From NCBI GenBank assembly GCA_009829735.1, contig CM020620.1:1674001-1738000 (forward strand): a stretch of DNA of 64,000 nucleotides, read 5' to 3'. The notes beneath the pieces were generated by a model. The model saw nothing but the letters and a program-made list of their open reading frames with translations. It did not search any database and was not told the DNA's origin. Position 1 is the first letter of the stretch; every line of letters begins with the position of its first letter. This document shows, in pieces, positions 14,555-62,700 of the stretch. Both the position numbers and the translations under genes were made by a program. Origin of the DNA: Pyropia yezoensis (taxonomy: Eukaryota > Rhodophyta > Bangiophyceae > Bangiales > Bangiaceae).

Positions 14555-17500
14555 TCATCCCCTGGCCATATCATCACACGCCCCCCCCCCGCCGCCGTCG
14601 GCGCGCTCCGACGATGGCCCCGGGGCGGGCCACACGGGTGGCGGTACGACCATCAGGGGGGAGGTGAGCGCCATATCCTCCGCTCCACCGCTGCCGCCGC
14701 CGCCGCCCATGCCGCCACCGCCATTCCCGCAGCCGACGGCATTGCTGCCGCCGCCGAGGCCACGGCCGCCGCTGCCGCCGACGCCGCCGACGTCGCCGCC
14801 ACCGTCGCCGCCACCGTCGCCGTCGTCCATATAGGACGGAATTGGGGAGAGCGAGTCGATGGGGGCACCGGCGCCGTCCATCCCTGGCGCCCCCCCGCCA
14901 CCGTCATTCACCGTCCCGTGAGCGAGCACGCCGGCGTTTGAGGGTGGAGCGCCCGCGGCGGCGGCGCTGGGATTGGTGGGGGTGGTGGCGGCGGCGGTGG
15001 CAGCAGTAGCCGTGGCGGTGGCGGTGGGGGCCCCCGCCGCCGCCGCCTCCGCCACCGCCTTGGCTGCCGCGGCCTGCCCCCGCGCCCGCGCCGCCCGGTT
15101 GTGGTTGTCGAGCAGCGGGTCGACAGCGCCGCCAACCATGCCGTGCATCGTCTGGGTGGGGAGAGAGGTCCACCCGGGCGGCGGCTCCGCGCCGCTCTGC
15201 ACCGCCAGCATGGTCGCGCGGAAGCGCGCCGCCTCAGATGGGACGGCGTACTCCAGGGACGGCTCGGCCGGCGGCGCGGCGGCGGCGGCGGCGGCGCCCC
15301 CTCCCGCCGCCGATGGTGCCTCCGGCGCCGCCTCCTCTTCATCGACCGTTTGGGGTAAGGAGCGGAGGATGACGTGCGCCTGTGCCGGGTGGTAGACGGC
15401 CATCTCCTTGAGGAAGAGCCACCGCATCTGCTCCGCGTCGAGCTTGTAGCGCTCAAACTCGAATTCCGCCCGCTGCAGCGGCGAGCCGGGTGGCATATAC
15501 GCCACCCGCCCGACATCTTCAGCACGGTACTCGGCAAACCAGGGGTCGCCGAGCAGCTCTGCCGCCGATGCGCGGGCGCGGGGGTCAAACGCCAGCAGCC
15601 GCCGGATGATGCGCACCGCGTTGGGGTCTGCCGACGGGAGCGCCGCGGCGAGCGCGTTGGGTCCCCCGCCTGCAGAGGCGGGGAGGGAAAGGAGGTACCG
15701 CTTGGCCGCCGTGTCCCGAACGGTCTCCATTGCCGACCGAGCGGGAGTTCCGAGCAGCGCCACCTGCCGCGACAGCATGTCGCGGTTGTTGAGGCCAGGG
15801 AAAAGGGGCACGCCGCCGCTGACCACCTCGGCAAAGATGCAGCCGGCCGACCACAGGTCAATGGCAGTAGAGTAGCTGGTGTACGCCGACAGGAGAAGCT
15901 CTGGCGCGCGGTACCAGCGGGTGGCCACGTAGTCGGTCCAAAAGACCGTCTCGGTCGGGTCCCGTCCGTCAGAGCCGGGTGTCGTCGCAAACGCAGCGCG
16001 GGCGAGGCCAAAGTCGCAAATCCGCACCTCGCACGCGTCATTAATGAGAATGTTGGCGGGCTTGAGGTCCCGGTGCAGCACGTTGGAGGCGTGGAGGAAG
16101 GCAAGCCCTGCTAGCAGCTGGTACATGATGAACCGCTGGTGGTCGGGCGACAGCGTCACCTGCAGGGGCGACCGCAGGACACACTGCAGGTCGGTGGGCA
16201 TCAGCTCAAACACAACGCACACGTCGCGGAACCTTTCTGTATCCGACGGCAGCAGCACGTCGAGGATGGAGATGACATTCTCGTGGGAGCGAAGGAGGCG
16301 GAGGAACTTGAGCTCCCGCAGGATGCGCGTCGCCTCACCGATCGAGTCAAACACTGTTGCGATGCGCTTGATGGCCACTTCCCGGTTGGTTTGTTGGTCT
16401 GTCGCCGACACCACTACCCCGTACGCACCCTGTGAAGGATGATCACAATCGGAGTGTGCCCCGAGGGGAGCAACGCGGAGGGGAGGAAGGGGGGCGGACG
16501 GGGGAGGTAGGGGGGGCGGAGGGAGTGTGGCAGATGGCGGGGAGGGGGGAAGGGGGTGGGCAGAAGCGAAGCAGGGAGACAAGTGTGGGGCAGGAAAAGG
16601 GGGAGCAAGTTCCTCCCAAAGGACACCAGATGTCGCAAGTCCCTCCCAAAGGGCACCAGATGACGCCACAAAACGACAGCCAAAAAAAATGGTCAGTCGG
16701 GGGTCCTCTCCGTCCGTGGGCGCCGCTGGCGCCCCCGCCGGCGCCGTCGGCCAGACGACGCGTCACGCCAACACCGACGTGGCCGCCGCTACTGCCATCA
16801 CCATCGTCCGTAGGGACGGGCGCTCGCAGCGCCCGACCACGGGTGCACCCACCCTACCACGTAAACGAGCGGACAGCAGCACATGGAGGGGAGCGGCGGG
16901 GCATGGCGGGGTAGGGGGGAGCGACGACGCACGGCGAGGTAGCAGCGGCGCACCGCGGGGGGGAGGGGGGCAACGGCCGCCGGGTGCCGCACCGACGACG
17001 CCCGCCACAGGCCTGCGAGGTGGCACGGGCCGGCAGGCGAAGGCGGTAACCACCCCACCGACCCCCCCAAGTAAAGGGTGCCGGCCAGACCCGCCCGGCC
17101 ACGACGGCACCCCCGTGCCCGTCGCCGGGACGTGACCAATGCCATCCTCCCCCCCCCCCCCCAGTGGGTGGGTGGACGATGCCCCCCCTAGCCCCCCAGC
17201 TCCCCACCCGTTCCGCGCTCAGGAGAGCTACCCCTCCCTCTCGCTTGCCCTTCATCGCACCCGCGCCCCACGCCCCTACGCAGCCCCCTGCCCCCTCCCT
17301 AACAGCCCCTGTCTTGTCTCTCTCACCCCCCCCCCCCCCCCCCCCCATCCAGCCAGGGTCCCAACATTCCCCCTGTCCCCCCCCCACCCCCCTAGTGCTC
17401 TCAGCCTTTCCCAACCCCCCATAAACCGCACCTGTCCGATAATCTGGTTCACCCTGTACCGCTGCTGCGCGAGCGGCGGCAGCGCAAACTCCTGCCGCGC

Positions 17501-19636: not shown

Positions 19637-20214
19637 CGTAGCATCTCTGGCCCTGACTTGGCGCCGACCCAGGATGGCGACCAGGGGGCACCATGTGCCA
19701 GGACACGCCCGCCGTGTAGGGATGGTTGGCGGCCGTGGCCCGTGCCCGGCACTGGGATGCGGTGGACTACGCTACCCACACGTGAGAGAGGTACTTCTGA
19801 TGGGTTTTTGCATACTTGTGAGGGACTTTATTTTGTGAGAATTTGAGTGTGCGATTAGTGAGGGAGACTAGAACTAGTAGTGATAGTGGCCCCCGACCTG
19901 ACGAGGTTAGACTTGGGTCGGGGCCACTCGGGGGTAGGGGGGGGGGGGGCTACCTGGCCAACGTGCCGAGGCTCCCCCAGATGCACGTTAAGAGGGACAG
20001 CGAGGCGCCCTTGGCCCGCGCCCTCAGGGAAAAAGACAACTGCGCGTTTGCTTTCCTCTTCCCCGTGTGCACTACCGTGCGTATCTGTTTGCTCTGCCAG
20101 CAGGCACGTGAGGCAACAGGCGTACCACTCTCGTAGTTCCCGTTTCTGTGTTACCTGTCCCTTTCCCCCGAGAGATATTGACAAGTGTCTGAGAGGATCG
20201 AGTTTTATACCACA
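19637..20214 (+). repeat. 5' LTR of element B'
   Basis: This 578-bp sequence matches, in inverted orientation, the 571-bp LTRs at 27805-28375 and 39109-39679. It ends ACCACA. Its first base is C where B has T, so the TG terminus has mutated. The next bases, TATTTGGTGGAGCAGC, form the primer-site region shared with B. Confidence 0.9.
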
Positions 20215-20510
20215 TATTTGGTGGAGCAGCAGGGGACTGGAGTGTTTGAGAAGAGACATTGGGGAGCAGCGGTTGGGTTCTTCCTGTTCTGTCCTCATCT
20301 GTGGTTTGGGAATTATTTGCACCCGTTCACGGGAATCCCGTTCCTGGCTCCCCAACCCCTCTCTTGTGGTCTGGCGATCTTTGGACATGCAGGCAACTGG
20401 ACTGTGGCTGTCAAGAGACCAACATGCCTACCCTCCTTGGCACGACGGTGCCCGAAGGGGTAGACCCCGCGTCCCTTGACGCATCTCTGGTCACTGCGGG
20501 GGACGGTGTC

Positions 20511-20979
20511 TGTGGCAAAAACCTCTCGCACACGCGACGCCCAAGTTGGGGCGGCGTACAAGGGCTGCCTCCCATGTCGGGGGAACCGGAAGAAGTGCAA
20601 GTCGCACACACTCTATCCCTGTTGTGGGGCAATCCCCCCACTGACAAACAAGAGGATGGTGTGTGGTCCAACAGTTTCTTGGTCGGGACGGGGAAGCAGG
20701 GCCAAGCCCCGCTGTCCCTCCCCTTATCCCCCCAGGGTCCCCTCAGAATCTCGCCACTCAGAATCGCCCACCCCAGCACCTGCCCACTGGGCCACACGAA
20801 AATTCAAGACGATAAATGCAGAAAACCCTCAAATCCAAGTTGGATTTACTACTAAGCTAACTATCCCAAACTTAGGGAATATGGACCCAAATGCAGGGGG
20901 AGGAACGGGTCAGGCTAGTGGCCTGCCGCCCCTTGCATGGCACGTGTTGCCCCCCTACATGGGGGTCAATACTGCCACA
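20511..20979 (-). repeat. 3' LTR of element A
   Basis: 469 bp, TG...CA termini. On the minus strand it is preceded by the purine tract AGAGGAGAGGGGAG (20993-20980), the plus-strand priming site. Confidence 0.93.
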
Positions 20980-21317
20980 CTCCCCTCTCCTCTGTTCCGA
21001 CCGACCCGGTCGGCCCTGTGAGGGGGTGCGTAAACGCACGTCTCGGCGTTGGGGGCGCGACTTGCTGTCCCCCCTCGAGTACGTAACGTGGACGTGGAGG
21101 CGGTCACGTTGACCGCCCCTCTCCTCAAGCTCGCCTACTCGGCAGCTTGCTCTCCCCGGTTCTCACTTCACCACCACGAACACATCCCCTTCACCTTCCC
21201 CTTGGCCGCCCCACACTGGGGAGGCCACCCATCCACCCACGATCCGAGCCTCCCTCAACTCGAGGCGGGTCTCGTGCCGTTGCAACAAGGGCGTCTCTCC
21301 CTAACGTGGGGAGAGCC

Positions 21318-23261
21318 ATGGCGACCCCGGGGGTGGAGACCGACTCTCTGGATGAACGTATGGAGGACACCTCCTACGGTGCAGCGCCCGCCGGGACTTC
21401 CGGCGGGGGCTCCGCGATCGCTCCGGGGGATGGGACTCCCGCGTCACCCGGCTTTGGGTTGACGGCGGGATCTCCCCCGAAGGCGGGCCAAGTCGTCCCA
21501 CGTGAGGCCTTGGGGCGGTGGTTCTACCCCGCTTGGCCTCTGTATGAGGAGGGGTTGACTGTTCTTCGCTGTGGCCGACTTGGCACAGCGATGGGTCGGG
21601 TATGGGACCGCCTACGGGAGAAGTATCCCCGTAGGGTCGGGTTCCCTGCCGGCTTCAGGACGGACCAGTTTGCCTTCCTGGACGACGAGGAGGTCGAAGA
21701 CGTACAGCGGGCCAAGGCCATGGTGGACCGCGGGGGAACTATCCCGGGTCCCGGCGACTTGCCGACCTTTACTTGGGACGCGGTGGCAACTCGCCCCCCG
21801 TACCTTCACGAGGCCGATCCGCACACTCATCACTTTGATGTGCGGATGGAGAAGGACTTCCGGCGAGGTCCCTACTTGGTGACCTCGGCTCAACTTGAGT
21901 TTCCGCAGCAGTCCGCCGCCAGTAAGGAGCAGTACTACCCGAAGAAGCCCGAGTGGTGGCCTCAAGCTGAGGTCCCCGACGGGTTCCCTGCGTTGCTACC
22001 ACGGTTGCTCGACCACGTCGGCTCCGTCATGTTGACGGCTAGCCCAGATCACCTGGTGTGGGCCATGTTGGCCACACAGTGGCTCCTCGAGGTCATGTCG
22101 ACCTGGGTGTCTTGTGTTCAGCGGCGGGGGATGCTCTGGCATCTTCCCCTTCGGCTTATCCAAGGTTTGGAACAGCTCACCCCTCAGCTAGTTGCTGAGG
22201 GGTGCTCATCAGGACAACTCACTCTACTTGAGGAGATGCTCCGCCTCCACAAGTTCATCGAGTGGGAGAGCATCGAGCACAAGTTGCGCCGTCCCACCCG
22301 CGGGCCCAAGGACGATGGCGCACTTCGCCAGCTCGTATGGATCGCTCGTGAGCTTCACGACGGCCGTGTGGTACTACGAGAGGGGTTGGGCATCGGGGAC
22401 TACCCGTATGCCCCGGGGGTGGATCGCCACACTGCGCCACCCCCGGACAAGGCCATAGTGATGGCCGTGCCCTCCCACGATGACCATATGACTCAACCCA
22501 CTGCGGGGGCCCCGAGTAGGCGTCGCAGTTACACTCGGGCACCGCCACCTCGGCGTGCCCCTCCGCTTCCTCCTGTCCCCTACCAGCCGCGCGGGGACAT
22601 CCCGATAAGCGTGGCCGTTGAGTCGTCCACCCCGGTGTCCCCCAACTTGGGGGCCACTCTTCTGACGGTTTACCCCAAGTTGGTGTTACAGGCAACGCCT
22701 TTGACCTCAGAGATGATGATCACCTCGTTGGTGCGCACCATTTCCTGGTTTGCCGCGTCGACCGCAACCCTTCAAGTTCCCGAGACTCCTCAACTTGAGG
22801 AGCGCGTTCGTACCGCGGTGGCGACCGCGAGTTGTGAGTCAGTGGTGGAGTTTATGACGGCCGAGTTGGCTCGCATCGGGGCTATTGTGCCCCAGCCAGC
22901 CCCACTTGGGCGTGGCAAACGTCGGGCGAGCCGGGCATACTCGCCTCCTCGCCGTCGTCGCCGACGCTCGCGGCGCTCTCCCTCCGTGTCGGAAGACGAG
23001 TTGTTTTACTCCGTCTCGGAGTCCTCTACTCCGTCAGAGTCGGAGTCGGTCCGGCATCTGCGTCGCCAACTTGCGCGCAAGACTAAGCAGAAGAGTAGCC
23101 GCGGTCGTCGCCACTTGCGCGACCGTGACGGGCGCGACGGTTCCGACTTGGAGCCGCCGGCCCCGCCGACTGGTGGGGAGCGTTATCGACGTGGGTCTCG
23201 CAGCTCGCCTCCACGTGAGGGCGAGGGCCGTGGGGTTGGCGAGTCCTGCATGCATGCCTAG
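21318..23261 (+). CDS. Antisense ORF of element A, 647 aa, unknown family
   Basis: This ORF runs opposite to gag-pol, between pol (stop at 23373) and the 3' LTR, tail to tail with pol 111 bases apart. I chose the ATG at 21318 (GCCATGG); the frame stays open upstream to about 21147. The product has an acidic N-terminus with DERMEDT, a globular part at about residues 70-400 with PPYL, YLVTSAQLEF and YYPK, a Pro/Arg-rich linker, and a basic Ser/Arg C-terminus (RRRRRRSRRSPSVSEDEL) suggesting nucleic-acid binding or a nuclear signal. I see no signal peptide, membrane segment, zinc knuckle or catalytic motif. The same-spaced motifs occur in B's antisense ORF, and the N- and C-terminal motifs in the relic at 62.3-62.7 kb. 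The ORF is intact although the sense pol has three stops. Confidence 0.75.
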   Translation: MATPGVETDSLDERMEDTSYGAAPAGTSGGGSAIAPGDGTPASPGFGLTAGSPPKAGQVVPREALGRWFYPAWPLYEEGLTVLRCGRLGTAMGRVWDRLREKYPRRVGFPAGFRTDQFAFLDDEEVEDVQRAKAMVDRGGTIPGPGDLPTFTWDAVATRPPYLHEADPHTHHFDVRMEKDFRRGPYLVTSAQLEFPQQSAASKEQYYPKKPEWWPQAEVPDGFPALLPRLLDHVGSVMLTASPDHLVWAMLATQWLLEVMSTWVSCVQRRGMLWHLPLRLIQGLEQLTPQLVAEGCSSGQLTLLEEMLRLHKFIEWESIEHKLRRPTRGPKDDGALRQLVWIARELHDGRVVLREGLGIGDYPYAPGVDRHTAPPPDKAIVMAVPSHDDHMTQPTAGAPSRRRSYTRAPPPRRAPPLPPVPYQPRGDIPISVAVESSTPVSPNLGATLLTVYPKLVLQATPLTSEMMITSLVRTISWFAASTATLQVPETPQLEERVRTAVATASCESVVEFMTAELARIGAIVPQPAPLGRGKRRASRAYSPPRRRRRRSRRSPSVSEDELFYSVSESSTPSESESVRHLRRQLARKTKQKSSRGRRHLRDRDGRDGSDLEPPAPPTGGERYRRGSRSSPPREGEGRGVGESCMHA

Positions 23262-23372
23262 TTGGCAGCTGCCTTTGTTGTGGGAGTGTGAAGGGTAAGG
23301 CTGTAGTTAAAAGCCACTCTGCGTACCACTTCGACTTGAAGCACTCTCTTGGCACTGTTGCTCGGCCCTCCC

Positions 23373-26300
23373 TCACGTTGAGGGGGGGCTGTTAGGGTCT
23401 ATATCATTCCGGGCACAGTATGCCCGGACCCTCTCAGCGGGAAGGTCCTCCACATATTCCCACGTATCATCCTTGGCCTTATAGCCGAACCAACGCACCC
23501 TCAACATGAGGCGGTTAGTGTCCTCATCCCAGCCGTGGTCGATGAACTTATCGAACACGTACTCCTGCGGGCCATGTTTGGCCGCAGGCAGCGAGGGCAG
23601 GCGCCATGCTTCCAGCGCCCGCGCCCAAGCTGGGTCGCTTGCAGGCGGTGGTGCAACTTTGACCACGTCCTGTCCGTCTACTGTGCGGACCCCATCGTCA
23701 CTTTCGATGGTGAAGCGCCGCCCATCAGTACGAAGGACCTGGTACGGCCCCTTCGTCTGGAATACCAACTTACCCCCAGTTGGGGTGTGTGAGTGAACCA
23801 GTACCCAGTCACCCTGCTCGGGGACATGCTTAGCATTGCGCACCTTTTTGTCAGAGGTACGCTTGTAGCGCTTTTGCGCTTTGTCCATCTCAGCCCTGAC
23901 TTTAGGGATGAGTTTTTCAAGCCTAGCAGCGAACTCCGCCTTACTCTCAGTAGGAGTAGGCGTACTGCCACCATCCTCCCCAGTTGGGGGCGACCGCAGC
24001 ACGGCAATAGACCGCACGCGACGGGGAGTCACAAAAGCGAGGGGTACTTCCCCGGTAGATGAGTGAACCTGCGAATTGTAGGCAGTCGTTAGAATAGAAA
24101 TGTACTGGTCCCACGTTTTCACGTGCTCACTCACATAGTGGCGCAGCTGCCGAACAATAGTTTTGTTGAAGCGCTCCACCTGCCCATTAGTTTATGGGTG
24201 GTAGGGGGTGGCATAGTTTGCCTGAACCCCCAACATATCCAACACTCCCTGAAACAGTACAGACGCAAATTGCGGTCCATTGTCCGATAGTGTACTATCC
24301 GGGATGCCATACGCGGCAACCCAGTGATCTAGGAAGGCTGACACGACCGACATGGCTGTGATCTCTGCCAGTGGGATCGCTCGCGTAAGTTTCGTGAAGC
24401 GGTCACAGATGACCAGGAGGTACTGGTTGCCCTCCTCGGTCACTGGCAGTGGCCCAAGGATGTCCATTGCCAACGCGGCAAAGGGCTCCTTGGCCGGGAA
24501 CAGTAGCATAGCCGTAGTAGGCCGCCGTTCCATCAGACGGTTCTGGGCACAACTTGTGCAGGCAGCCACCCAACTATAGATGTCCACCACCATGGACGGC
24601 CAGTAGTACCTGGTCCTCAGGGTCTGGTACAGTTTGCTAGACCCCAGGTGTCCACCTGTGGGAGCGTTATGCTCCCTCTCAAGGATACTGTCCTTGAGAG
24701 ATGCGGGGACCACAAGTTGTTCGATCCCCTGGAATACCCCCCTCCTCAAGAGGAGGCCATCGTCCCCGATAAAGAACCGCGTCTCCGCCACCGTATCCAG
24801 TGTATCCCTCTGCGACTTGCAGAAGGGGTCCTCGGCCTGGGCCTTCACCACCTCGTCCAGGGACAGGGGCAAGTACTTCTTGTTCCCTGGCGCCTCGGGG
24901 TCCAACACCTGACCCGAGCGCGTGACTACCCCCACGATGGGGATGTCCTCATCGACTGAGTTAGTGTCCAGCCTCTCGGTAGGTACCCGAGATAGGCCGT
25001 CGGCAAGGGCATGTTGCCTGCCAGGTCAGTACTCAATATCAAAGTTGAAGGGTGCCAGTCGCACCCTCCACCGGTTGAGACGAGTGTTCGTGCAATCCGT
25101 CTTGAAGATGAACTGCAACGCGCGGTGGTCACAGCGGATGAGGAACTTCTCACCCTCTAGGTAGTGACGAAGTGACGTCATCGCCCACACCGCTGCGAGT
25201 CCTTCCAACTCGGTGACTCCGTAGTTCTTCTCGGCCGAGTTCAGCCCGTTGCTGAAGTATCCCACCGGCAAGTACTCCTTGTCCGGCTGCTGCTGATGCA
25301 ACACACAACCAAGTTGGTCGTAGCTAGCGTCCACATCCAGGATGGAGTGGCCTCCCAACCTGGGAATAGCCAAGATAGGGGGCTTCAGCAGAAGATCCCG
25401 AAGAGTCTCAAAGGATTCCTGCTCCACCCGACTTGGGGGAGGCAGGTTCTTCGGTAGCAGTGAGCTAACTAGCTCATTCAATGGCTTCGCCACCTTGGCG
25501 GAGCCCTTGGTGAAACGTCGGTACACGTTCTACATCCCGAGGAAGCTCCTCATCTGGGTCTGGGTCCGGGTGTACTGAGCCTTACGAATGGCCCTCAAGT
25601 TCTTCTCATTGACACTGAGGCGCCCCGGTCGGACAACATCTCCCAAGTATTCCACCTCTTGAGTGAAGAGGTGGCACTTACTCGCCTTCAGTGACACTCC
25701 GGCGTCAGCAAGTAGCTTGAACACCTGGCCAAGATGGCCAATGTGTTCCCCCGGACTTCGGGAGAACACAATGATATCGTCTAGGTATACGAGACAGATC
25801 TGCCACCGTACTCCGGCCAGAATCATCTCCATAGCGCGTTGGAAAGTTGCCGGCGCGTTGCACAGTCCAAACGGTAGTCGCTTGCACTGGTAGGTACCAC
25901 AGTGACAGGTAAAGGTACTTTTATGCCTGTCCTCCGGGGCAATGGGAATTTGCCAGTACCCCGCGTTAGAGTCCAGGGTAGAGAACACGTTGGCCTCCCC
26001 CAGAGAGTCCAGACAGTCATCCATCCTAGGTAGGGGATAACTGTCCTTCACCGTGCTCTCGTTGAGCTTACGGTAGTCGATCCAGAACCGGGGGGTCCCA
26101 TCAACTTTGGGGACAATAACCACCGGGCTCGCCCACTCGGCGTTGCTGGCCTCGATCACATCGAGGGCCTCCATGCGAGCGACTTGCTCCTTAACGAGGG
26201 CCCTTGAACGGGGCCCTCCCCTATACGGTTGTTGGCGTATAGGGGGTGCACCGGGTTTCAACTCGATCCGGTGTTGGGTGGCTCTCATGAGTCCCAATTG

Positions 26301-27356
26301 ACCATCCCACAACTTGTGATATTGGTCCAAGAGGCGTTCGACTTGAACCCTCAACCTGGGTGGAACACCCTCCATGTTCACATGGGGCCGAGGAGAGGCG
26401 GCCGACTTGGCTTGGTGCTTCTCCTTTCCGGACTTCGGGTCGCTACTCGCGCCCCCATTGAGGGTGACCGCTACTACCGGTACCTCATGTTGGTCGATAT
26501 AGCCGAACTTGGCTCCCGACTTGAAGTACTGGGGCGACGAGCTCAGGTTCATCACCTGTATCCTCCACGGGACTCCGGCTTTGGAGTCCATCGTGCCAAG
26601 GGCAACATGCACTTGGTGCTTGCGAGCAAGACGGGGGTGAGGGTGCACCAACCCGTTCCCCGTATAATCAGTTACAACGTCAACGTGCGCCACCGAGTTG
26701 GGGGGCAACGTGACTTTACGGCCTAAACGCAGGGTAGCAGTGAACCCTTCTCTCACCGAGCAAACAGGCTTCGACTGTGAGATTGTCACAGGAGCCAGAG
26801 ACTTTCCCTTACCAAGGATGGGGATAGTCTCCCCATTCATCAACTTGACCCAGTACTCAGGGCCACAAATCAAAGGCACTTGTGTAACAACATAAGGGGT
26901 ACCCAGAAGCAGGGGTACCGATATATTCTCAACTACACCATAGGTCACGTCGACCTCATGGGTCCCCAACCTAGTTGGTAGGGTCACGGCACCAACGATG
27001 GGAAGTACCCCACCATTGATGCCGATCAGATGGTCAGCTTTAGACTTCCAGCGTTGGAGCTTCATCTCCTTTGGCAATAGCGACTTGCGTATCAAGGAGG
27101 CTCCTGACCCGGTATCAAGTACGATACGGGCACAACAGGCACGGCCGGGGGCTAGTTGCACCCGTCCAGACACCTGGAAGTTCTCACCCGTCAGCACCGC
27201 GATGACTCGACGTGGGTTTACGTCCTTGGGGAGTCCTACCCGAGGTGGGCGGACTCCCTTAGGTCGCCGTAGTATCCGGCAGGGTTTGTTCGTCCTCTTG
27301 ACCCACTTGGCCGAGGCTGCCGTTGTGAGCTTCGGACGGCCAGCTCCAACGGTCAT
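23373..27356 (-). pseudogene. pol of element A (protease-RT-RNase H-integrase-chromodomain)
   Basis: One continuous frame of 1328 codons starts at the ATG at 27356. In order: retropepsin IVLDTGSGAS; RT with VIVPKVDGTPRFWIDYRKLN, FGLCNAPATFQRAM and the catalytic LVYLDDIIVFS; RNase H (ILDVDASYDQLG, IRCDHRAL); integrase zinc finger (EREHNAPTGGHLG...CTSCAQNR) and DDE core (MDILGPLP, STLSDNGPQFAS); and a C-terminal chromodomain (LRVRWFGYKAKDDTWE). Three nonsense codons lie in frame: TAG 25532-25530 (Cys in B), TGA 25028-25026, and TAA 24194-24192 (where B has Gln). There are no frameshifts. The decay is by point mutation only. Confidence 0.92.
27353..27356 (-). promoter_or_regulatory. ATGA gag-stop/pol-start overlap in element A
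   Basis: The minus strand reads GAATGACC. TGA ends gag and ATG begins pol one base earlier. This arrangement suits termination-reinitiation for pol synthesis rather than ribosomal frameshifting. It differs from family B. Confidence 0.7.
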
Positions 27357-27804
27357 TCGTTCCCCGCCGACTTGGCGTCTGAATCTGAGGGCGAGGGGGA
27401 AGACGACGAGTCCGAGGACGACGTGTCTACCTCCTCCGCCGAGGGTGTGGCGACCGCCACTACCGGTCGAGGTCCACCCTCGCGGCGTGAACGTTTTTCG
27501 TTCGTAGCCGACTTCTTGCTCGCATTCCTAACAAGTTGTTGGATGCGTTTACTCAACTTGGGGCAATCATATGCCCAGTGTCCATCGGAGTTGCAGTTCC
27601 AACACCGATTGTCAGTTCCCGGAGGGGTCTTCCCGACTGGGGAAGACGAAGAGGTACCCTGGGAAGTTCCCACGGCAGCTACTACCCTCTCCTTTCGGAT
27701 TCGGCGTGCCTCTCTCAGCTCTCGGGCCTGGCGCGCCTCCTCACGTTCCTTGGCCAACTCGGCCTGACGCGCCTGGCGTTGTTCCTCCCGCAACTTGCGG
27801 TAGG

Positions 27805-28375
27805 TGTGGTATAAAACTCGATCCTCTCAGACACGTGTCAATATCCCTCGGGGGAAAGGGACAGGTAACATTGAAAGGGGAACTACGAGAATGGTATGCC
27901 TGTTGCCTCACGTGCCTGCTCGCAGAGCAAACAGATACGCACGGTAGTGCACACGGGGAAGAGGAAAGCAAACGCGCAGTTGTCTTTTTCCTGAGGGCGC
28001 GGGACAAGGGCGCCTCGCTGTCCCTCTTAACGTGCATCTGGGGGAGCCTCGGCACGTTGGCCAGGTAGCCCCCCCATACCCCCGAGTGGCCCCGACCCGA
28101 GTCTAACCTCGTCAGGTCGGGGGCCACTATCACTACTAATTCTATTCCCACTCACTAATCTCACACTCAAATTCTCTCAAATCAAGTCCCTCACAAGTAT
28201 GCAAAAACCCATCAGAAATCCCTCTCTCACGTGTGGATAGCGTAGTCCACCGCATCCCAGTGCCGGGCACGGGCCACGGCCGCCAACCATCACCGCACGG
28301 CGGGCGTGTTCTGGCACCTGGTGCCCTCTGGTTGTAGTCCCGGGTCGGCGCCAAGTCGGGGCCAGGGATGCTACA
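27805..28375 (-). repeat. 3' LTR of element B
   Basis: 571 bp. The plus strand starts TGTGGTATAAAACTCG and ends GATGCTACA. The purine tract GGGAGGGAG lies just inside (28376-28391 region, minus strand). Plus-strand TATAAAA at 27810-27816 faces the antisense ORF. Confidence 0.94.
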
Positions 28376-28559
28376 TAGCTCCCTCCCTAGTCCGGCACGT
28401 CCTCGGGCCGAACCAGGTGCCACCGTGCACAGCCTCGAGCACGTCCACACCGGTGCCGAGGTCGAGCGTCTTCACCCCGGTTACGACCACCTGCTCCGAT
28501 TCTCTGCTCCCCTTCTCTCCTTCACCTTGGCCCTCTCGTTCCCCCGGAGTCTGGACGTC

Positions 28560-30677
28560 ATGTCCAGTTCCGAGATCCAAGCTGGGCCCGTGGTTCCGGC
28601 GGCGAGTGTTGCGGAGGAGAACTCGGGTAGTCGCGCTCCTCTCCTGCCTCCGGTTCCTCGGGTGTCGATGTCGGCGCCGGTCGCCACGGCGGGGACGGAT
28701 CGGGTTCCCCCGGCTTCTGTGATGCACCCGGTCGAGATCCCCCCGGTGGGTCTCCCGGAGATGCTTCTTGGGCAGGACCCTCTGGCGGCCCGGCGTTACT
28801 CCACGGTGGTCGGCTTCGCCGGCGCGGCCCAGTGCCAGCAGGATTGCTTGGACCTCTGGCGCAAGGAACTCCAGCGCGGGGTCTTGACAGAGATGGATAA
28901 GGCTCGTCTTCACACGGCGGACCAGATGCGCCTGGCACAAGACCGCTCCCAGAGCTTCTCGGGTTCCTCTTGGGTTGCTCGTCTGGAGGATCTCCCCTTC
29001 GCGCTGGTGCTGGATCTGCCCTTGACCGAGCGTCGCGTGTCCGCGTCCGTTCTCCGGTGGCCGGAGGAGGAAGGGTACGTCCACCGGGCGCTCAAGGTCT
29101 GGGACGAGGCGCTCAAGGGGTCGGGGAGCCTGAACTGCGACCCCCGTCCGAGCATGGTCGCTCTGGAGCCGCCTTTCCTGACCCGGAAGTACTCCAAGTT
29201 GTCACCGGCACGGGAGCAAGGCTAGCGACGCGGCCGTCAGCGTGACTTCCTCGTGAGCTGCAACCATCAGGAGTTCTGGAAGCTGGATAAGGCTCACCGG
29301 GCGGCGTACTACCCCAAGGTCATCTCGCAGCAGCAGGAAGTCGAGATCCCGGTCGGGTTTGCTCCTTCCAGCATCTCCTTCACCTGGTACTTCTTGGACG
29401 CCTTGACTCAGGCGTCGATCAAGGGCTTCTTCTACTCGATCCCGTACATGATGTACACGTCCGAGATGACAGTCTTGGCGGCCTACCACTGGCTTCACGA
29501 GGTCTTGGTGTCCAACCGGCTTTGGTTTCTCCCTGACCTCCTGATGGTCTGGATTGTCGACAAGTTGACCGTCGACTTCCTGTGCAGCCAGGACGAAGAG
29601 TACAAGGGGCTCTTCCAGGCGATGATTGACTTCCGGCGTCTGGTGCCGGTGCATGACCGGAACTTCTTGAACGCGATTGCCGACCAGAACCGCCCGCGTC
29701 GGGATGGCTTCAGTTGGGCGCAGGTGGTCTACCAGTCTTCTCCGGCCAAGGTGCAGCTGGCGACGCCGCTTCCGGCGTGGCCGCAGCTAGGTAGCTTTCC
29801 CGCCCCGGCCGCCCTTGATCTTCTGCCAGTTGGGCCGCCGGTGCAGGAGTCGGGATGGGCCGCGGCGGTCGGTCAGGCGTCTGCGGCGGCTCCGCTTCCT
29901 CCTGTTGCACCTGTCGCCCCGGTGGCCTCGCCTGAACCGTCGCCGGCGCGTTCACGCCCTGTTCCGGCTGTGCCGGTACTTCAAGCTCCTCCGGCACCGC
30001 GCCTGTCTGCGGCGAGTCTGGGGGTGACCGTGCGGTCGCCTACCACTCCGGCCGCTCCGCCTCGGACGCCTTCTTCCAACGCCGGCGGCGCCGTGCCTCC
30101 GCTGGAGTTGGGTACTCCGGTTTCGGGGGCCGTTGTGGACCGTCCGGTGGTGTCATCCTCGGGGCGGTTCGAGATTCCGGCGCCGACTCTGCGCCTTACC
30201 CGCTTCCGGGTGCCTGACTGGTACCTGAACCAAGGTGGCCCGACATGCGACCAGTACGACGTCGGTATGATTGAAGACCAGCTGGGTCGTCTTCCGGTGC
30301 AGGTTGAGGGCGTCGGGTCTTCCCTGGTGCTGGGCACTTACGCCAGCGTCTTGAAGAACGTGGTTGACCGGGTGTTTGCTTGCGCGGACAGCGGCCAGAT
30401 GTCGAACAGCCCGGTGGTTGGCGAACTTCTGGCGACCTTGACGCGGCATGGCTTGGCCCAGCAGTGGTCAGAAACCTTCACTGGCTTCCAGGGGCGCCGA
30501 TGGGCATATCTGGATGAGCGGGAGCCCCCGGCAACTACCGGTACTACTCCGATGGCGTCATACCGGGATGCACCGCGTCCACCGCCCTACGTCATCCCGT
30601 CTTCCTCCGGTTCCCGTCGTGCCGCGGAGGCAGCGCTGGAGGACACTCCCGCGGCTCAGCGTCCGCGCCGGGAGTAG
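28560..30677 (+). CDS. Antisense ORF of element B, about 705 codons with one in-frame TAG
   Basis: It lies between pol (stop 30823) and the 3' LTR on the opposite strand, tail to tail with pol, 145 bases apart. The frame is open from the ATG at 28560 (an upstream in-frame ATG at 28368 lies inside the LTR) to the TAG ending at 30677, except for one TAG at 29223-29225. The stop falls inside a conserved spacer: PPFL, then 22 codons including the TAG, then FLV-x5-EF-x10-YYPK. This is the same spacing as in element A, so the TAG replaced a sense codon without changing length. The central part is aromatic (FTWYFLDALTQ, WLHEVLVSNRLWFLPDLLM). The C-terminus is Pro/Ala-rich and ends basic. I see no known domain, no signal peptide and no clear membrane segment. 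Confidence 0.72.
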
Positions 30678-30822
30678 TAGTTGGAGGCAAGGAGGGTGAG
30701 GGTCTTGGGAGAAGCGAGGAGGGAAGAGGCGGAGAGAAGGGTTGCCCGAGCGGGTGCTTGTTTTCCTTGATTGTTCCATGCTTGTATTGCATGTTCTCCT
30801 TGATATACCCGTTCCCTTCTTC

Positions 30823-33800
30823 TCAATCCTCTTGCTCCGCATCCGTTGCGGATGAACTCGGCTCGTCCCGAGGGTCTTGGTTGGCCCCATCCTCTTGGTC
30901 CTCCTCCGAGTCCGACTCCAGAATCTCGCCGGCTCTGGCCACTGGAGTGCCCTCTATCCCGTTCCGTCGCGTGTAGGCACAGACATCCGCGATGGGTAGC
31001 CGGTTTGAGGGTTCCCAGGTATCATCTGCCGGGTTAAAACCGAACCAGCGTACTCGCAGGTACAGGCGTCCGTCTCTCCAGGCATGGTCCACGAACTTGA
31101 CGTAGACATATTCCCGACCTTCTTCTTGGGATAGCCAGGGTACTGCGGCCCGCTTGCGCCGGGTCAAGTCCCGTTGGCTTTGCGGTGGAGCTCGGGTGAC
31201 ATGGTCGCTGCTCACCCGGTACGGGGAGCCATCCACGTCTAGAAGAAAGGTCCAACCGTCCGTATTCAGGATCTCATAAGGTCCATCCGTCTTCGAGTCC
31301 AGCTTCCCCCGGGTCTTGCTATGGTTGTCCACAAAAACCCAGTCGCCACCACCCAGTTCCTTGTTCTTTTCCCGAACGCCCTTGTCATAGCCCCGCTTGT
31401 ATCGCTCCTGGGTCTTCGAGATTGACTCCTTGACTCTTGGGAGCAGGAGCTTCAGTTGTCCCAGGAACTCATCCTTTGCCTTGGGACCTGACTTCAATGC
31501 AGGCTGGAGACCGTCTGGTATTCTTTCCAGGGAGAAGTTGGTCAGCCGCCTTGGGGTAACAAAGTCGAGTGGAGCGACCCCCGTTGTCCGGTGAACTCGG
31601 GAGTTGTAGGCTAGAGTGACGACAGCCAGGAGCTCGTCCCAGTCTTCTTGGTGCTCCTCCACGTAGTGCCGTAGCATGTCTACTAGGGTCCGGTTGAATC
31701 GTTCCACCTGGCCGTTCGTTTGAGGGTGGTACGTCGTAGTGTACAAGTTCTTGATGCCCATCAGGTCACAGACTCCTTGGAAGAACAGGGATGCAAACTG
31801 GGGACCGTTGTCGGTTAAGACGGAGTCTGGAGGGCCGTAGGCAGCTATCCAGTACTCGCAGAAGGCTGACGTGACATCCAGAGCCGTGATGGTCCTCAGC
31901 GGGATTGCTCGAGTGAACTTGGAGAACCGGTCACAAATGATGAGCAGGTATATGTTGCCACTGGATGTTTCAGGTAGGGGCCCCAGGATGTCCATGCTTA
32001 AGCTTGCAAAGGGCTCCGCCGCAGGGAATAGGCGTAGCTTAGAAGTCTTCTTCCTCTGGGACAACCGGTTCCTTGCACAAGAAACACAAGCCTCCAGGTA
32101 CTTATGGACGTCACTGGCCATGGTTTCCCAGTAATAGTGTCGTCTCATGAAAGCATACATCCGATTGATACCAGGATGTCCGGCCTGGGGAGACGAGTGC
32201 TCCAGGCGTAGGATGTCAGCTCGTAGGCCCCGGGGTACGTAGACTTGAGTGGCCCCATCGAAGGGTGACACCCGTACTAGGAGTCCGTCCGTAGACTCGG
32301 AGAAACGACTGTTCCGGTTCAGGTCCATTTGGTGGCGAAGCTCCAAGCATTGAGGATCCGTCAGTTGTGCCTCCAGCATCCGGTGAATAGTCACCGGTTG
32401 ATGAGCTTCAGGTGTCTCATACAGGGGAGCATGCCAGCCACGTCCGACATTCGGAGGATGAAGCAAGGTATTTCCTCCGGGATAGGACCGGTATCGGCTG
32501 CAGGAGTCTCCAGCCGGGACATGGGGTCGGCGCAGTGGTGCTCCCTCCCTGCTCTGGTGCACACCTTGTACTTGAACTCCGAAAGGCGTAGGCGCCACCG
32601 GGCGACCCTTCCTTGACTGCTGTCCATACATAGCAGCCACCTTAGGCTGCGTGGTCCGTCCGGATGAGGAACTCTTGTCCTTCATGATATGGCCGTAACA
32701 GGAAGCAAGCCCAGACGACTGCCAAGCACTCGCGCTCCGTCGTGGAATAGTTCTTCTCGGCTGGAGTCAAGACGCGACTGTAGTAGCCTATCGGGAGGAA
32801 GTGCCCATCAGGTTGCTGCTGGAGTAGTGAGCACCCCACCTGGACGCCACAGGCATCAGTCTCCAGAACAAACTGGCCCTCCCGCTTGGGTAACGCCAGT
32901 ACTGGGTGGTGGTCAGGCGCTTCTTGAGCTCTTCGAAGGCCGCGGTCTGCTTCTCGTCGAACACCGGGAGTTGTGCGGGAAGCTTCTTGCTGGTAAGCTT
33001 GGTCAGTGGCCGGGCAATCAGAGCATAGTCCCGTACGAACCGGCGATAGACGTTGCACATACCCAGGAAGCTTTGGAGTTCCGTCTGGGTTTTGGGTTGC
33101 CGTGCATTCCGGAGGGCCTTGATGTTCTTCTCATTGACTCGGAGCTNNNNNNNNNNNNNNNNNNNNNNNNNNNNNNNNNNNNNNNNNNNNNNNNNNNNNN
33201 NNNNNNNNNNNNNNNNNNNNNNNNNNNNNNNNNNNNNNNNNNNNNNNNNNNNNNNNNNNNNNNNNNNNNNNNNNNNNNNNNNNNNNNNNNNNNNNNNNNN
33301 NNNNNNNNNNNNNNNNNNNNNNNNNNNNNNNNNNNNNNNNNNNNNNNNNNNNNNNNNNNNNNNNNNNNNNNNNNNNNNNNNNNNNNNNNNNNNNNNNNNN
33401 NNNNNNNNNNNNNNNNNNNNNNNNNNNNNNNNNNNNNNNNNNNNNNNNNNNNNNNNNNNNNNNNNNNNNNNNNNNNNNNNNNNNNNNNNNNNNNNNNNNN
33501 NNNNNNNNNNNNNNNNNNNNNNNNNNNNNNNNNNNNNNNNNNNNNNNNNNNNNNNNNNNNNNNNNNNNNNNNNNNNNNNNNNNNNNNNNNNNNNNNNNNN
33601 NNNNNNNNNNNNNNNNNNNNNNNNNNNNNNNNNNNNNNNNNNNNNNTTGACTCCTTGACTCTGGAGCAGGAGCTTCAGTTGTCCCAGGAACTCATCCTTT
33701 GCCTTGGGACCTGACTTCAATGCAGGCTGGAGACCGTCTGGTATTCTTTCCAGGGAGAGTTGGTCAGCCGCCTTGGGGTAACAAAGTCGAGTGGAGCGAC

Positions 33801-36800
33801 CCCCGTTGTCCGGTGAACTCGGGAGTTGTAGGCTAGAGTGACGACAGCCAGGAGCTCGTCCCAGTCTTCTGGTGCTCCTCCACGTAGTGCCGTAGCATGT
33901 CTACTAGGGTCCGGTTGAATCGTTCCACCTGGCCGTTCGTTTGAGGGTGGTACGTCGTAGTGTACAAGTTCCTTGATGCCCATCAGGTCACAGACTCCTT
34001 GGAAGAACAGGGATGCAAACTGGGGACCGTTGTCGGTTAAGACGGAGTCTGGAGGGCCGTAGGCAGCTATCCAGTACTCGCAGAAGGCTGACGTGACATC
34101 CAGAGCCGTGATGGTCCTCAGCGGGATTGCTCGAGTGAACTTGGAGAACCGGTCACAAATGATGAGCAGGTATATGTTGCCACTGGATGTTTCAGGTAGG
34201 GGCCCAGGATGTCCATGCTTAAGCTTGCAAAGGGGCTCCGCCGCAGGGAATAGGCGTAGCTTAGAAGTCTTCTTCCTCTGGGACAACCGGTTCCTTGCAC
34301 AAGAAACACAAGCCTCCAGGTACTTATGGACGTCACTGGCCATGGTTTCCCAGTAATAGTGTCGTCTCATGAAAGCATACATCCGATTGATACCAGGATG
34401 TCCGGCCTGGGGAGACGAGTGCTCCAGGCGTAGGATGTCAGCTCGTAGGCCCCGGGGTACGTAGACTTGAGTGGCCCCATCGAAGGGTGACACCCGTACT
34501 AGGAGTCCGTCCGTAGACTCGGAGAAACGACTGTTCCGGTTCAGGTCCATTTGGTGGCGAAGCTCCAAGCATTGAGGATCCGTCAGTTGTGCCTCCAGCA
34601 TCCGGTGAATAGTCACCGGTTGATGAGCTTCAGGTGTCTCATACAGGGGAGCATGCCAGCCACGTCCGACATTCGGGAGGATGAAGCAAGGTATTTCCTC
34701 CGGGATAGGACCGGTATCGGCTGCAGGAGTCTCCAGCCGGGACATGGGGTCGGCGCAGTGGTGCTCCCTCCCTGCTCTGGTGCACACCTTGTACTTGAAC
34801 TCCGAAAGGCGTAGGCGCCACCGGGCGACCCTTCCTTGACTGCTGTCCATACATAGCAGCCACCTTAGGCTGGCGTGGTCCGTCCGGATGAGGAACTCTT
34901 GTCCTTCATGATATGGCCGTAACAGGAAGCAAGCCCAGACGACTGCCAAGCACTCGCGCTCCGTCGTGGAATAGTTCTTCTCGGCTGGAGTCAAGACGCG
35001 ACTGTAGTAGCCTATCGGGAGGAAGTGCCCATCAGGTTGCTGCTGGAGTAGTGAGCACCCCACCTGGACGCCACAGGCATCAGTCTCCAGAACAAACTGG
35101 CCCTCCCGCTTGGGTAACGCCAGTACTGGAGTGGTGGTCAGGCGCTTCTTGAGCTCTTCGAAGGCCGCGGTCTGCTTCTCGTCGAACACCGGGAGTTGTG
35201 CGGGAAGCTTCTTGCTGGTAAGCTTGGTCAGTGGCCGGGCAATCAGAGCATAGTCCCGTACGAACCGGCGATAGACGTTGCACATACCCAGGAAGCTCTG
35301 GAGTTCCGTCTGGGTTTTGGGTTGCCGTGCATTCCGGAGGGCCTTGATGTTCTTCTCATTGACTCGGAGCTCCCCCGGACTCAGCACGTGCCCCAGATAC
35401 TCCACCTCAGTCTCAAACAGGTGGCACTTCTCGGCCTTGAGGGTAACTCCAGCCTTGGACAGGAGGGCCAGGACCTCCCGAAGGTGCTCCAGGTGTTCCG
35501 CTGGGGTCTTGGAGAAAACGATAATGTCGTCCAGGTGGACCAAACATGTTCTCCACCTTAGCCCGGACAGGATGATGTCGATGGCTCTTTGGAAGGTGGC
35601 CGGGGCATTGGTGAGACCAAAAGGAAGACGCTTGCACCGGAGTAGTCCCAGGTGGCACGTGAAGGTGGTCTTGTCCTTGTCCTCGTCAGCCAGAGGGATC
35701 TGCCAGTAGCCGGCATTACAATCCAGCGTCGAGAAGAGGGTGGCATCACCAAGAAAGTCGAGGCAATCATCCATCCGGGGTATCGGGTTTACGTCCTTGA
35801 CTGTCATCTCGTTCAGGCGCCGGTAGTCAACGCAGAAACGGAAGTGACCGCCGGTTTTCGGGACGACTACCACCGGGAAAGCCCACTCGCCATCAGACGG
35901 CTCGATAACATCCATCTTGAGCATCTTGTTAACCTGCTTCTCAATCTCATCCCGGCGATGAGGTCCAGCCCGATATAGTTGCATGTGCACTGGCTTAGCT
36001 TCCGGCTTGAGTTGAGTCCGGTGTAGAGTGGCGTCCATCTTGCCCAGCTCTCCCGACCACAGGTGCCGATATTCCTGGAGAAGCTTCTCCAGTGCCTTCT
36101 TCAAGTCGGGAGGGACATTTTCTTGCTTGACCTTCGGCATCCCGGGTGGTGCTTGTTCGGGTTTCGGAGTAGCGCTGCCAGCCTGCTCTTGTTTCGGAGG
36201 TACGTCTAAGGCCGTCAAGTTGGATGCCAGTTCTTGTTGCAGGTTCAGGAGGTCTTCCTTGCTCATAGCACGGGCGGATCCCCGGTAAGGCTCTGCTGTA
36301 CCAACTCGGGTGCCCTTGGCGAGGGTTATTGGCTTCCGGCTCACGTTGACGATGAGCACCGGGAACGGGGTGTGCCTTTCTACCTTCTTGTGATGTCCGT
36401 GGGCCAAGTATAACCGGTGTTTCGCCAGAAATTCCTTACGTCCGTAGATCAGGCATTGACCTGCAATCCGGGTCGTTACTTGAACCTTGGTCTCCGAGCG
36501 AGGAGGTAGGAGCACCGGTTTGAGGAGAGTCAAGGTAGAGGGTGGGATGCGTTCCCTCTTGCTCTTGGCTACACGAACCTTGGCGTCCAGATGCTCCAAT
36601 ACCGGTGACACAAACCCATGGTTGAACTGGACCTTCCCTTCTCCGGGTAGGATGCTCTTGACATGCTGCTTCTGGAAGTCCCAGCCTAGGATAAGGGGGA
36701 CTGATAGGGTCTTGACTACTAGAAAGGGAAAAAGCATTGGTTCATTGTTGACATAGATGGCGACAGGAAGACGGCCAAGCGGTCGTAGGGTTTGACCCGA

Positions 36801-37145
36801 AGCGTCGACGATATGGGTCCGGGTAGGCGCTCTCCAGGCATGTCGACGCCAGCCCGGAGGTAACAGGTTCTCAGTGATGACGCTTGGTCCGGCTCCCGTG
36901 TCAACCACCGGCGTAACAGCTTGGGGGAGGCTATCCCCCACACGCATACGAGCATTAATCTTGAGGTTTTCTTTACGCAGGACGAGCAATGTCCCCTTGA
37001 ACAAACAGGGTGTCCAGGCGGCTATCGGTTGAGCAGGTAACCGCCGTCCTTTCTCCCGGCACGCAAGGGGAGAACAGGTAGAAGTACCCTGCCGTTGGAG
37101 GTTCGGGAAGACACTTGGGGAGAGCGCCTGCCCTACTCGTTTCCC
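30823..37145 (-). CDS. pol of element B (protease-RT-RNase H-integrase-chromodomain)
   Basis: Pol is entered from gag by -1 slippage at 37145-37139. In order: retropepsin VVDTGAGPSVI and LILGWDF; RT (VVVPKTGGHFRFCVDYRRLN, FGLTNAPATFQRAI, LVHLDDIIVFS, with His in place of the usual Tyr of YxDD); RNase H (LETDACGVQVG, IRTDHASL); integrase HHCC (LEHSSPQAGHPG...CVSCARNR) and DDE (MDILGPLP, SVLTDNGPQFAS); chromodomain (LRVRWFGFNPADDTWE). It ends with an acidic tail at 30823. The assembled sequence contains the region from RT end to integrase twice, around the N gap, with single-base indels near both contig ends. The intact frame is visible from 37004 to about 34250 on the right contig and from about 32450 to 30823 on the left. 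Confidence 0.9.
31421..35371 (-). repeat. false duplication of element B pol flanking the gap
   Basis: 31421-33146 (1726 bp) and 33647-35371 (1725 bp) are the same RT-to-integrase segment. They differ almost only by single-base indels (for example GCTGCG/GCTGGCG, CTTCTTGG/CTTCTGG, GGCCCC/GGCCC), which cluster toward the gap on both sides. The left contig ends and the right contig begins inside this overlap. Confidence 0.88.
33147..33646. other. assembly gap (500 N)
   Basis: Exactly 500 undetermined bases, a conventional placeholder for a gap of unknown size. The flanks overlap in sequence, so the true gap is negative. Confidence 0.99.
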
Positions 37146-38897
37146 GGGTCCGAGGAGTCCTTAGAGGTTTCGGTCTCCAGGTCAAAGTCCGTAGGAGCTT
37201 CCCTTGCCAGAGCCTCCGTGATGCTCTGTAAGGTTGCCACTCGGATTGCGTGTACCTGTGCCTGGTCCATCTTGGAGGGTGCTCGCCGGTCAGCCCAGTT
37301 GACCGCCTTTGCAAACACCAGTCCTTGACGCTTGGGTTTCTCCTGGAGATCCTTGGGAATGGTCGGGCACTGGTAGGACATGTGATCCTCCTTCTGGCAC
37401 AGCCAACAAGACCGGAACCGCTGGTTCTTGACTTGCTTGGGGGCGACCAGGGATGGTTGCTCCTTAGAAATGAAGACGCCTCACTTGTCCCCTGACCCCA
37501 CGGGTGAGGCCTCGCCAACTCCGAGTACCGGTACAGGGCTATCACCTCCCTTATACTTGTCGGGTCCGGAACGAACTCGCGACAACGGCTTGGGAGTTGA
37601 TACCATGGGAGCTTGGAGGGCCCTGGCTTGCCGGTACTTGCCCTGGGTGTAGGCCATCAACTGCTGGAAGGTATGTTTTTGATGTTCCTGGTTGTAGTTC
37701 TCCGCATCCACTTGAAGATACTCAGGAAGCCCTTCCGAGAAGATCATCTTGAGCCTGTCCTCAGGGTAAACGTTCGTTGCCACAAGCATCGCTCATCTCC
37801 CGGACACGACGGGCGAACGCCTCTGGAGTCTCTTGTCTTTCCATGGTTGCCCGGTTCAGCCTGCCGACTGCTTTACGCAGAGAGTCCGCGTCAGCGTAGT
37901 TGGACAGGAGCCAGTTGACCGCCTCCGGATAACTCGCGACGGTACGTCCGACAATGTGTCCGGCAGAGTCTGGTAGAACCTGTGCAAATCGCTGTTCCGC
38001 TTCTCCGGTCATGAAGTTAACCAGGAGGTAGAGAGCCTTGCCCTCGGACACATCGTTGTCATTGCATGCCTCGACAAACCGGCGCAGGAAGGCAAAGATA
38101 AGCGCCGGTCTCTTCCCGGAAAACTTAGGATGTCCCCCGAAGCTCGGCTGCATTCGCCGGTTCAGGGACGCCATCTTCTTGGCCATCTTCCGGGTGTAAC
38201 CTTGGTCTTGGTTCTCCAGCCGGTAGTTACCCCAATACGTGACCTTGTTCAGGGTGGCATCCCCCACTTGGTGGGCAGGGAAGTCAAACTGGACTAGCCT
38301 GCGCCGGGTGGGACCGGGAGATGCATCCCAATCATATCCCTCCTCAGAGCTGGAGGAACTGGTCTCGCTGGTGCTAGAGCGACGGCGACGACGCCGACGC
38401 CTACGGCTGCTCCGGTTACCGGTCTTGGAGCTCCCCGCCCCATAGGATGCAAGGGGAGGAAAAGCTTGGCCGGTCCCAGGAGTCGAAGTCTCAGGAAGAC
38501 CCGTAGAACCAGTCGCAGCGGTGCCTCTGGCACTGCTAGTGCCCACAGGAAGAGGTGTATACACCCAGCTGCCATGTGTGGGTCCAGGAGTAAACACACC
38601 AGGGGCTATCCCAGGAGGTTGAGGAGTAGAACCGACAGGAGGGAGACGTTTGCTGCGAGCGGACTCAAACGCCGTTGACCCCGGGGTGGCTCCCACAGGA
38701 GGAACAGCCGGAGGAAGTGGAGCAGGTGGTACTTGGCCGCCTGTGGACTCCAGTCCGCTACCGGATGTCACGCCCAGGTCTGCTTCACCCGTAGGGAGAA
38801 CGCCGGGTTGGGCACCGTCCCCCGCGGTGACCAGGGATGCGACAAGGGACGCGGGGTCTACCCCTTCGGGCACCGTCGTGCCAGGGAGGGTAGCCAT
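37133..38897 (-). pseudogene. gag of element B (frameshift and one stop)
   Basis: The ATG at 38897 starts MATLPGTTVPEG. A Pro/Thr/Gly-rich N-terminus, an Arg-run (RRRRRRRRSS) and a capsid domain (FAFLRRFVEACNDNDVS, MTGEAEQRFAQVL, RRVREMSDACGN) follow. Relative to B', four extra bases near 37790 shift the frame. A TGA at 37483-37481 stands where B' has a Ser codon. The CCHC knuckle (CWLCQKEDHMSYQC) follows at about 37420-37370. The gag stop TAG is 37135-37133. The lesions may be real or assembly errors, since the LTRs indicate a very young element. Confidence 0.85.
37139..37145 (-). promoter_or_regulatory. -1 ribosomal frameshift heptamer in element B
   Basis: The minus strand reads CCG GGA AAC GAG TAG in the gag frame. 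G-GGA-AAC is a canonical X-XXY-YYZ slippery site placed two codons before the gag stop. The pol frame is open from about 37160 (after TAA 37163-37161) through the protease, so -1 slippage joins gag to pol. The same heptamer is kept in B' at 43433-43439. Confidence 0.75.
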
Positions 38898-39108
38898 GTT
38901 GGTCTCTTGACAGCCACAGTCCAGTCACCTGCGTGTCCAAAGATGGCAAGACCACAAGAAAGGGGTTGGAGAGCCAGGAATGGGATTCCCGTGAACGGGT
39001 GCAAATAATTCCCAAACCACAGAAAAAGACAGAACAGGAGCAACCCAACCGCTGCTCCCAAATGTCTCTTCTCAAACACTCCAATGACCCCCGCTGCTCC
39101 ACCAAATA

Positions 39109-62690: not shown

Positions 62691-62700
62691 CGAACTCCCA

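Follow-up and report, generated by a model that had tools for sequence, protein, structure and literature searches.

Two antisense frames in nested Ty3/gypsy elements

The stretch of DNA analyzed here, referred to as the window, comprises 64,000 nucleotides (nt) of the red alga Pyropia yezoensis (assembly GCA_009829735.1, contig CM020620.1, positions 1,674,001–1,738,000), whose genome is given as 65% GC with 48% repeats in the available text of its description (PMC7423979). Self-comparison of the window revealed three nested Ty3/gypsy long terminal repeat (LTR) retrotransposons, with element B inside element A and A inside B', another element of the B family (Table 1). A and B each carry a long open reading frame (ORF) that runs antisense to gag-pol and occupies the interval from pol to the 3' LTR, and these two antisense frames are the main subject of this report. 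The first-pass annotation of the window had assigned 650–700 codons to both. This was accurate for A, which has an intact ORF of 647 codons, whereas the frame in this copy of B is split by a stop codon into parts of 285 (from 28368) and 474 codons; stop-free relatives of it exist. The arrangement was as annotated, with both frames tail to tail with pol and 111 (A) and 145 nt (B) from its stop codon, where about 110–145 had been stated. By coordinates, the LTR end and the ATG are separated by 338 nt in A and 184 nt in B.

The two frames share the motif PP[YF]L-x22-[YF]LV-x5-EF-x10-YYPK, and the stop codon in B falls within its x22 segment. The exact spacing reported in the annotation was present in both frames, but the motif is not strict, with several positions departing from it in the database relative P0006. 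The C-terminal tail of antisense protein A is basic and Ser-rich, with 12 Lys and Arg residues in each of amino acids (aa) 501–550 and 551–600. A similar style is seen in the gag-position ORF of B, in which an Arg-rich tract is followed by a Ser-rich tract. Markov simulations (1000 runs) of the region of ORF A gave a longest stop-free run of 597 codons, shorter than the ORF itself, and the length of the longer part of B lay within the simulated maximum (1000 simulations). The longest simulated runs averaged 226–280 codons, and this tendency of GC-rich sequence to yield long frames is the first point in favor of the view that the antisense frames arose by chance or hitch-hiking and are open merely through the youth of the copies. 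The LTR of B' just to the left of ORF A also suggested that this ORF might be the gag of a plus-strand element. This candidate was rejected because B' has its own gag from 41773, the LTR of A intervenes, and no similarity to gag was found.

The pol genes of A and B are 42–51% identical over their main segments, and their LTRs showed no significant similarity, in agreement with the annotation, which had called them unrelated. Chromodomain-like ends with a clear motif were found in both pol genes, on the minus strand at 23376–24179 (A) and 30826–32685 (B), although the Chromo domain matches (E 6.8e-5 and 23.1 bits in A; E 3.5e-4 and 20.9 bits in B) were below the Pfam cut-off of 25.1 bits. A and B probably belong to a chromodomain-type Ty3/gypsy lineage. 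These pol ends stand beside the result of a 2012 survey, in the accessible text of which retrotransposon chromodomains are reported as not found in the red algae examined, including Porphyra yezoensis (PMC3350952).

The sequence TTGGTGGAGCAG, found just inside the 5' LTR in all three elements (three matches in the window versus 0.04 expected), is likely the primer-binding site. Five-base repeats flank A and B and agree at four of five positions in each element. B' starts at around 19638, its likeness to B ends at 44305, and no 3' LTR of B' was found within the window. The pol gene of B contains two near-exact copies of a 1.7-kb segment (31422–33146 and 33647–35371) separated by N at 33147–33646. 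A fault of assembly probably accounts for this duplication, and in many genomic relatives the region has an open frame of 1371 codons. A decayed A-type element (copy C, approximately 61439–62700) has an A-type LTR with 78% identity and has lost about 430 codons of the antisense gene. No tandem repeats were found in 20400–31000, and a scan for poly(A) signals in the LTRs and at the gene ends found none.

Table 1. Positions of the antisense frames, the elements that carry them, and other features in the window
Feature	Position	Strand	Remarks
Antisense ORF A	21318 (ATG)–23261	+	intact (647 aa), in a frame open from 21147; tail to tail with pol of A
Antisense frame B	28560–30677	+	tail to tail with pol of B; one in-frame stop at 29223–29225 in this copy
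Element A	20511–41767	−	inserted in B-family element B'
3' LTR of A	20511–20979	−	97.7% identity to 41299–41767
pol of A	23373–27356	−	protease-like, reverse transcriptase, RNase H, integrase, chromodomain-like end; several frames
gag end of A	27353–27793	−	with CCHC zinc knuckle
Remaining gag of A	39684–41203	−	separated from gag end by insertion of B
5' LTR of A	41299–41767	−	primer-site-like TTGGTGGAGCAG at 41286–41297 (−)
Element B	27805–39679	−	inserted in gag of A
3' LTR of B	27805–28375	−	99.5% identity to 39109–39679
pol of B	30823–37004	−	contains near-exact duplication around 500 N
gag-position ORF of B	37761–38897	−	34% identity to gag of A over 167 aa
5' LTR of B	39109–39679	−	primer-site-like sequence at 39094–39105 (−)
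B', B-family host of A	19638–20510, resuming 41773–44305	+	B-type LTR, leader, gag start
Remnant of third, A-type antisense gene (copy C)	62185–62700	+	internal deletion and stop
SPRY plus CTLH protein ORF	4752–7016	+	
Protein kinase ORF	14558–16669	−	
ORF with weak DUF7869 match	49998–51656	−	match below cut-off

Homology, relatives, and genomic copies

The cores of the two antisense proteins are 22–23% identical. Their local alignment scored 76, whereas none of 1000 shuffles exceeded 58, and profile–profile alignment with hhalign scored 38.3 (E 4e-4, probability 35%), against a best of 24.8 from 100 column-shuffled controls. These comparisons indicate that the antisense genes of A and B are homologous and form one accessory gene family, and that the gene predates the separation of the two element families. 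Such homology across families with unrelated LTRs argues against a chance frame.

Searches of approximately 5.8 billion proteins, with about 8000 candidates scored per search, identified one A-type relative (P0001, 94%) and six B-type relatives (P0002–P0007) among the scored candidates, two of the latter six coming from the eukaryote protein set. P0002 is a stop-free B-type relative. P0003 is likewise open, and its similarity of about 66% to its best fetched genome match suggests that the gene is present in another species. The existence of open relatives in other data also speaks against an accidental frame. For the A and B pieces, no Pfam family was found at E up to 0.1, and 15 family members searched at E up to 10 gave a lone weak, unrelated match (E 0.4), with no match to TRP28 (PF04195). 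No PHROG family was found, nor any relative in PDB, where one search gave three matches with a best E of 0.06. The antisense protein had no relative in scans of viral and GTDB contigs, where the sole pol match (L001) was an unrelated contig of an archaeal metagenome-assembled genome, and the plasmid and Rfam searches gave nothing useful.

The copies in the genome were surveyed in the 107.5-Mb assembly of 11 contigs. Family A was represented by 63 scored copies with 92–100% identity, of which 41 were stop-free over the matched codons and 22 had one or two stops; this scoring takes the best candidates first and thus favors intact copies. For the B type, 124 candidates were scored, and 17 of the 30 fetched loci were stop-free over the aligned part. 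The antisense gene and pol were in opposite orientation and converged tail to tail in all eight A loci and in 29 of the 30 B-type loci, L016 having no visible pol. With both stop codons included, the distance between the two genes was 150–155 nt in 25 of these 29 loci, with outliers of 133 (L011), 210 (L013), −5 (L017), and −16 nt (L022). When five copies were sampled through pol, homology to the antisense gene was found in every one, with a stop-free aligned part in four, end-to-end alignment in one, and four stops in one.

A second Gypsy lineage, with an integrase 28–34% identical to that of B, was represented by 30 loci in one cluster. Two of its copies read downstream of pol (L081 and L082) had no antisense homolog beyond low-complexity matches, and four 4.5-kb stretches (L070–L073) were uninformative. 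L081 contained an unrelated-looking antisense frame of 991 codons, together with short stretches 76–77% identical to pol of B in the window; a neighboring inverted element is probably included in this stretch. The gene may be confined to the A/B lineage, although a sample of two copies from the second lineage is too small to show this.

Selection on the antisense gene

The antisense gene evolves as a protein, and purifying selection constrains it to about the same degree as pol. In family A, the ratio of nonsynonymous to synonymous divergence (dN/dS) was 0.204 (eight copies, 28 pairs), compared with 0.274 for the pol end of the same copies. It was lowest (0.10) at aa 121–215, which hold the motif, and highest at aa 451–530 (0.36) and 531–647 (0.29), the basic tail included. 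In this family, zero-fold sites had diverged least (0.016), followed by the LTR (0.035), the leader (0.045), and four-fold sites (0.067). When B in the window was compared with the 30 B-type loci, dN/dS ranged from 0.12 to 0.32 and third positions changed most, and the low ratio persisted out to a dS of about 0.6, which is difficult to reconcile with a frame that is open through youth. Among 317 pairs of B-type loci, dN/dS was 0.273 for the antisense gene versus 0.200 for integrase, and dS of the two correlated at 0.90, indicating that they travel together. Along P0002, residues 77–150, 151–260, and 441–530 were the most constrained (0.18–0.22), with higher values in the Pro-rich linker (321–440; 0.40) and at the end (531–583; 0.44). 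Neutral simulations from protein-only homologs gave a clear result in one of eight comparisons (P0003, none of 400 simulations as conservative) and a weak one in another (P0005, P 0.015); the other six were not significant.

Frames other than that of the gene behaved differently. In each of four comparisons (one A, three B), four out-of-frame readings gave dN/dS values of 0.93–5.46, and it is this difference between in-frame and out-of-frame ratios that makes a chance frame unlikely. That view has further points in its favor, as some recent pairs diverge almost neutrally and A compared with the decayed copy C shows no signal at codon positions beyond that of the non-coding leader. Taken with the homology and the open relatives described above, we nevertheless regard it as very improbable. 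The codon-level signal bears equally on the idea that the antisense RNA itself is functional, through double-stranded RNA, silencing, or transcriptional interference, with the protein incidental. Although this would suit the convergent arrangement and is a possibility raised for plant elements in the accessible part of a 2020 review (PMC7264820), no codon periodicity would be expected from a function of the RNA alone, whereas zero-fold sites in A diverge less than the leader and LTR, with dN/dS at 0.20–0.27. We therefore consider an RNA-only function improbable.

Several observations weigh against reading the frames as a maintained protein-coding gene. The copy of B in the window is interrupted by its own stop, and the aligned part contains one or more stops in 13 of the 30 B-type loci. 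Among the five pol-sampled copies, three are nearly neutral relative to B in the window (dN/dS of 0.046/0.068 in L076, 0.019/0.024 in L077, and 0.012/0.007 in L078); such a pattern is to be expected if copies are recent and dead, yet it gives no support. B-type pairs with a dS of 0.1–0.2 had a ratio of 0.57 (35 pairs), compared with 0.11–0.15 at a dS of 0.02–0.1. Antisense frame −1 gave values as low as those of the gene (0.12–0.29) because third positions are shared, and it is interrupted by 22 stops in A and 17 in B. In 12 B-type loci, divergence between the convergent stops was 0.133, versus 0.253 at four-fold and 0.102 at zero-fold sites, so that a ratio taken against this stretch, whether or not it is neutral, would be around 0.8. 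The structure models, with predicted local distance difference test (pLDDT) scores of 30 and 32, are unusable and show helices at most. As a separate observation, the stretch between the stops (30678–30822 and its equivalents in the 12 loci) may hold shared 3' processing signals.

Weighing these points, we consider the antisense frames to be almost certainly a real, selected gene. The annotation had proposed that the gene either was present before the families split or is under selection, and the homology of A and B and the dN/dS values well below 1 bear out both. It had also named absence or neutral decay in most other copies as the outcome that would speak against the gene; with stop-free frames in 41 of the 63 A copies and in 17 of the 30 B-type loci, and with these ratios, that was not what the genome contained. 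Its statement that no known domain is recognizable agrees with the Pfam, PHROG, and PDB searches. For the fold check that it suggested on both products, the searches gave no Pfam or PDB relative and the models were unusable.

Proposed role and comparison with known antisense genes

We think it likely, taking the account as a whole, that these frames constitute a selected accessory gene family of a chromodomain-type Ty3/gypsy lineage, served by a putative antisense promoter and encoding a putative regulator. The placement of the gene calls for a promoter in or beside the 3' LTR. Such a promoter, in or just inside the LTR, would read inward on the other strand to produce an mRNA. Its predicted product is mostly helical and has two conserved portions, an N-terminal part and a C-terminal block, with a Pro-rich linker between them; the A product would add its basic, Ser-rich tail. 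The protein would then act in the nucleus on the DNA, RNA, or chromatin of its own element and control sense expression or the copy cycle. We put this nuclear role forward tentatively; it is favored because of the likeness of the gene to GENE23 of Grande and to retroviral antisense genes (PMC7264820, as available).

The main alternative is that the antisense strand encodes a companion of the particle rather than a regulator, that is, a structural or RNA-binding protein resembling a second gag or nucleocapsid. The basic, Ser-rich tail of A, the all-helical models (of low confidence), and selection equal in strength to that on pol would all be compatible with such a protein. However, the antisense protein showed no similarity to gag of A or B (best blastp E 0.10; profile comparison E 0.28 and 0.54), no zinc knuckle was found by Pfam in 15 family members, and separate antisense expression would be an awkward route for a particle protein. 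On balance, we consider a particle companion rather unlikely.

The annotation had presented the frames as the best candidate for an undescribed system. As a kind, they are not undescribed. The accessible part of the 2020 review lists antisense ORFs in the interval from pol to the 3' LTR for Grande, RIRE2, Retand, PvRetro13, and the fungal Boty (PMC7264820). According to the available text of a 2025 survey, flowering-plant Retand elements that were active recently also have antisense ORFs, and 97% of the clusters contain TRP28 (PMC11963269). As in the aORF-3R class, the algal frames are antisense to gag-pol between pol and the 3' LTR and occur in many copies, not as a one-off transduced gene. 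Thus, the kind of gene is known, and the protein, as far as its sequence can tell, is without a Pfam or PDB relative.

Each of the described cases resembles the algal gene in part. Most recently active Retand elements share a Ty3/gypsy antisense ORF in the same interval (PMC11963269, as available), but Retand is described as a non-chromovirus lineage with TRP28, whereas the algal gene has no TRP28 match and lies beside a pol with a chromodomain-like end; the sub-cut-off Chromo matches of A and B speak against the chromodomain-less pol that marks Retand/Tat. Grande GENE23, RIRE2, and PvRetro13 are alike in position, in orientation, and in encoding proteins without known relatives, and in the review as accessed GENE23 is reported to be nuclear and transcribed, with a proposed regulatory role (PMC7264820). 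These are elements of flowering plants, and the likeness is one of description. The same holds for brtn of Boty from Botrytis cinerea, an antisense extra gene in a fungal Ty3/gypsy element outside plants, which was set beside the algal gene from the available descriptions (PMC7264820, PMC8365987). The Chlamyvir clade likewise consists of chromodomain-bearing Ty3/gypsy elements of algae, but of green algae, and the word "antisense" does not occur in the main text of either paper on it as available (PMC3350952, PMC6317226). No report of antisense or additional ORFs in algal elements was found by title or the start of the abstract in the open-licence literature. It is possible, if somewhat short of probable, that a red-algal lineage gained a two-block antisense regulator of undescribed fold before A and B split, independently of the plant and fungal cases and selected like pol, which would represent a further origin.

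HBZ of human T-cell leukemia virus type 1 (HTLV-1) and similar retroviral antisense proteins are also encoded by genes read from the 3' end of an LTR element. HBZ differs from the algal protein in size and host, and the likeness is by analogy alone. The antisense promoter of HTLV lies in the 3' LTR, according to the review as accessed (PMC7264820).

Catalogues of antisense ORFs in LTR retrotransposons exist, but the available text of both sources calls the roles of these ORFs unknown and makes no mention of measured selection (PMC7264820, PMC11963269). The presence of the gene in two diverged families, with many open copies, means that here the product has been kept as a protein, in a farmed seaweed, and the role of such proteins becomes directly testable. 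If the protein does regulate its element, this would represent a parallel to the retroviral antisense proteins in a distant lineage.

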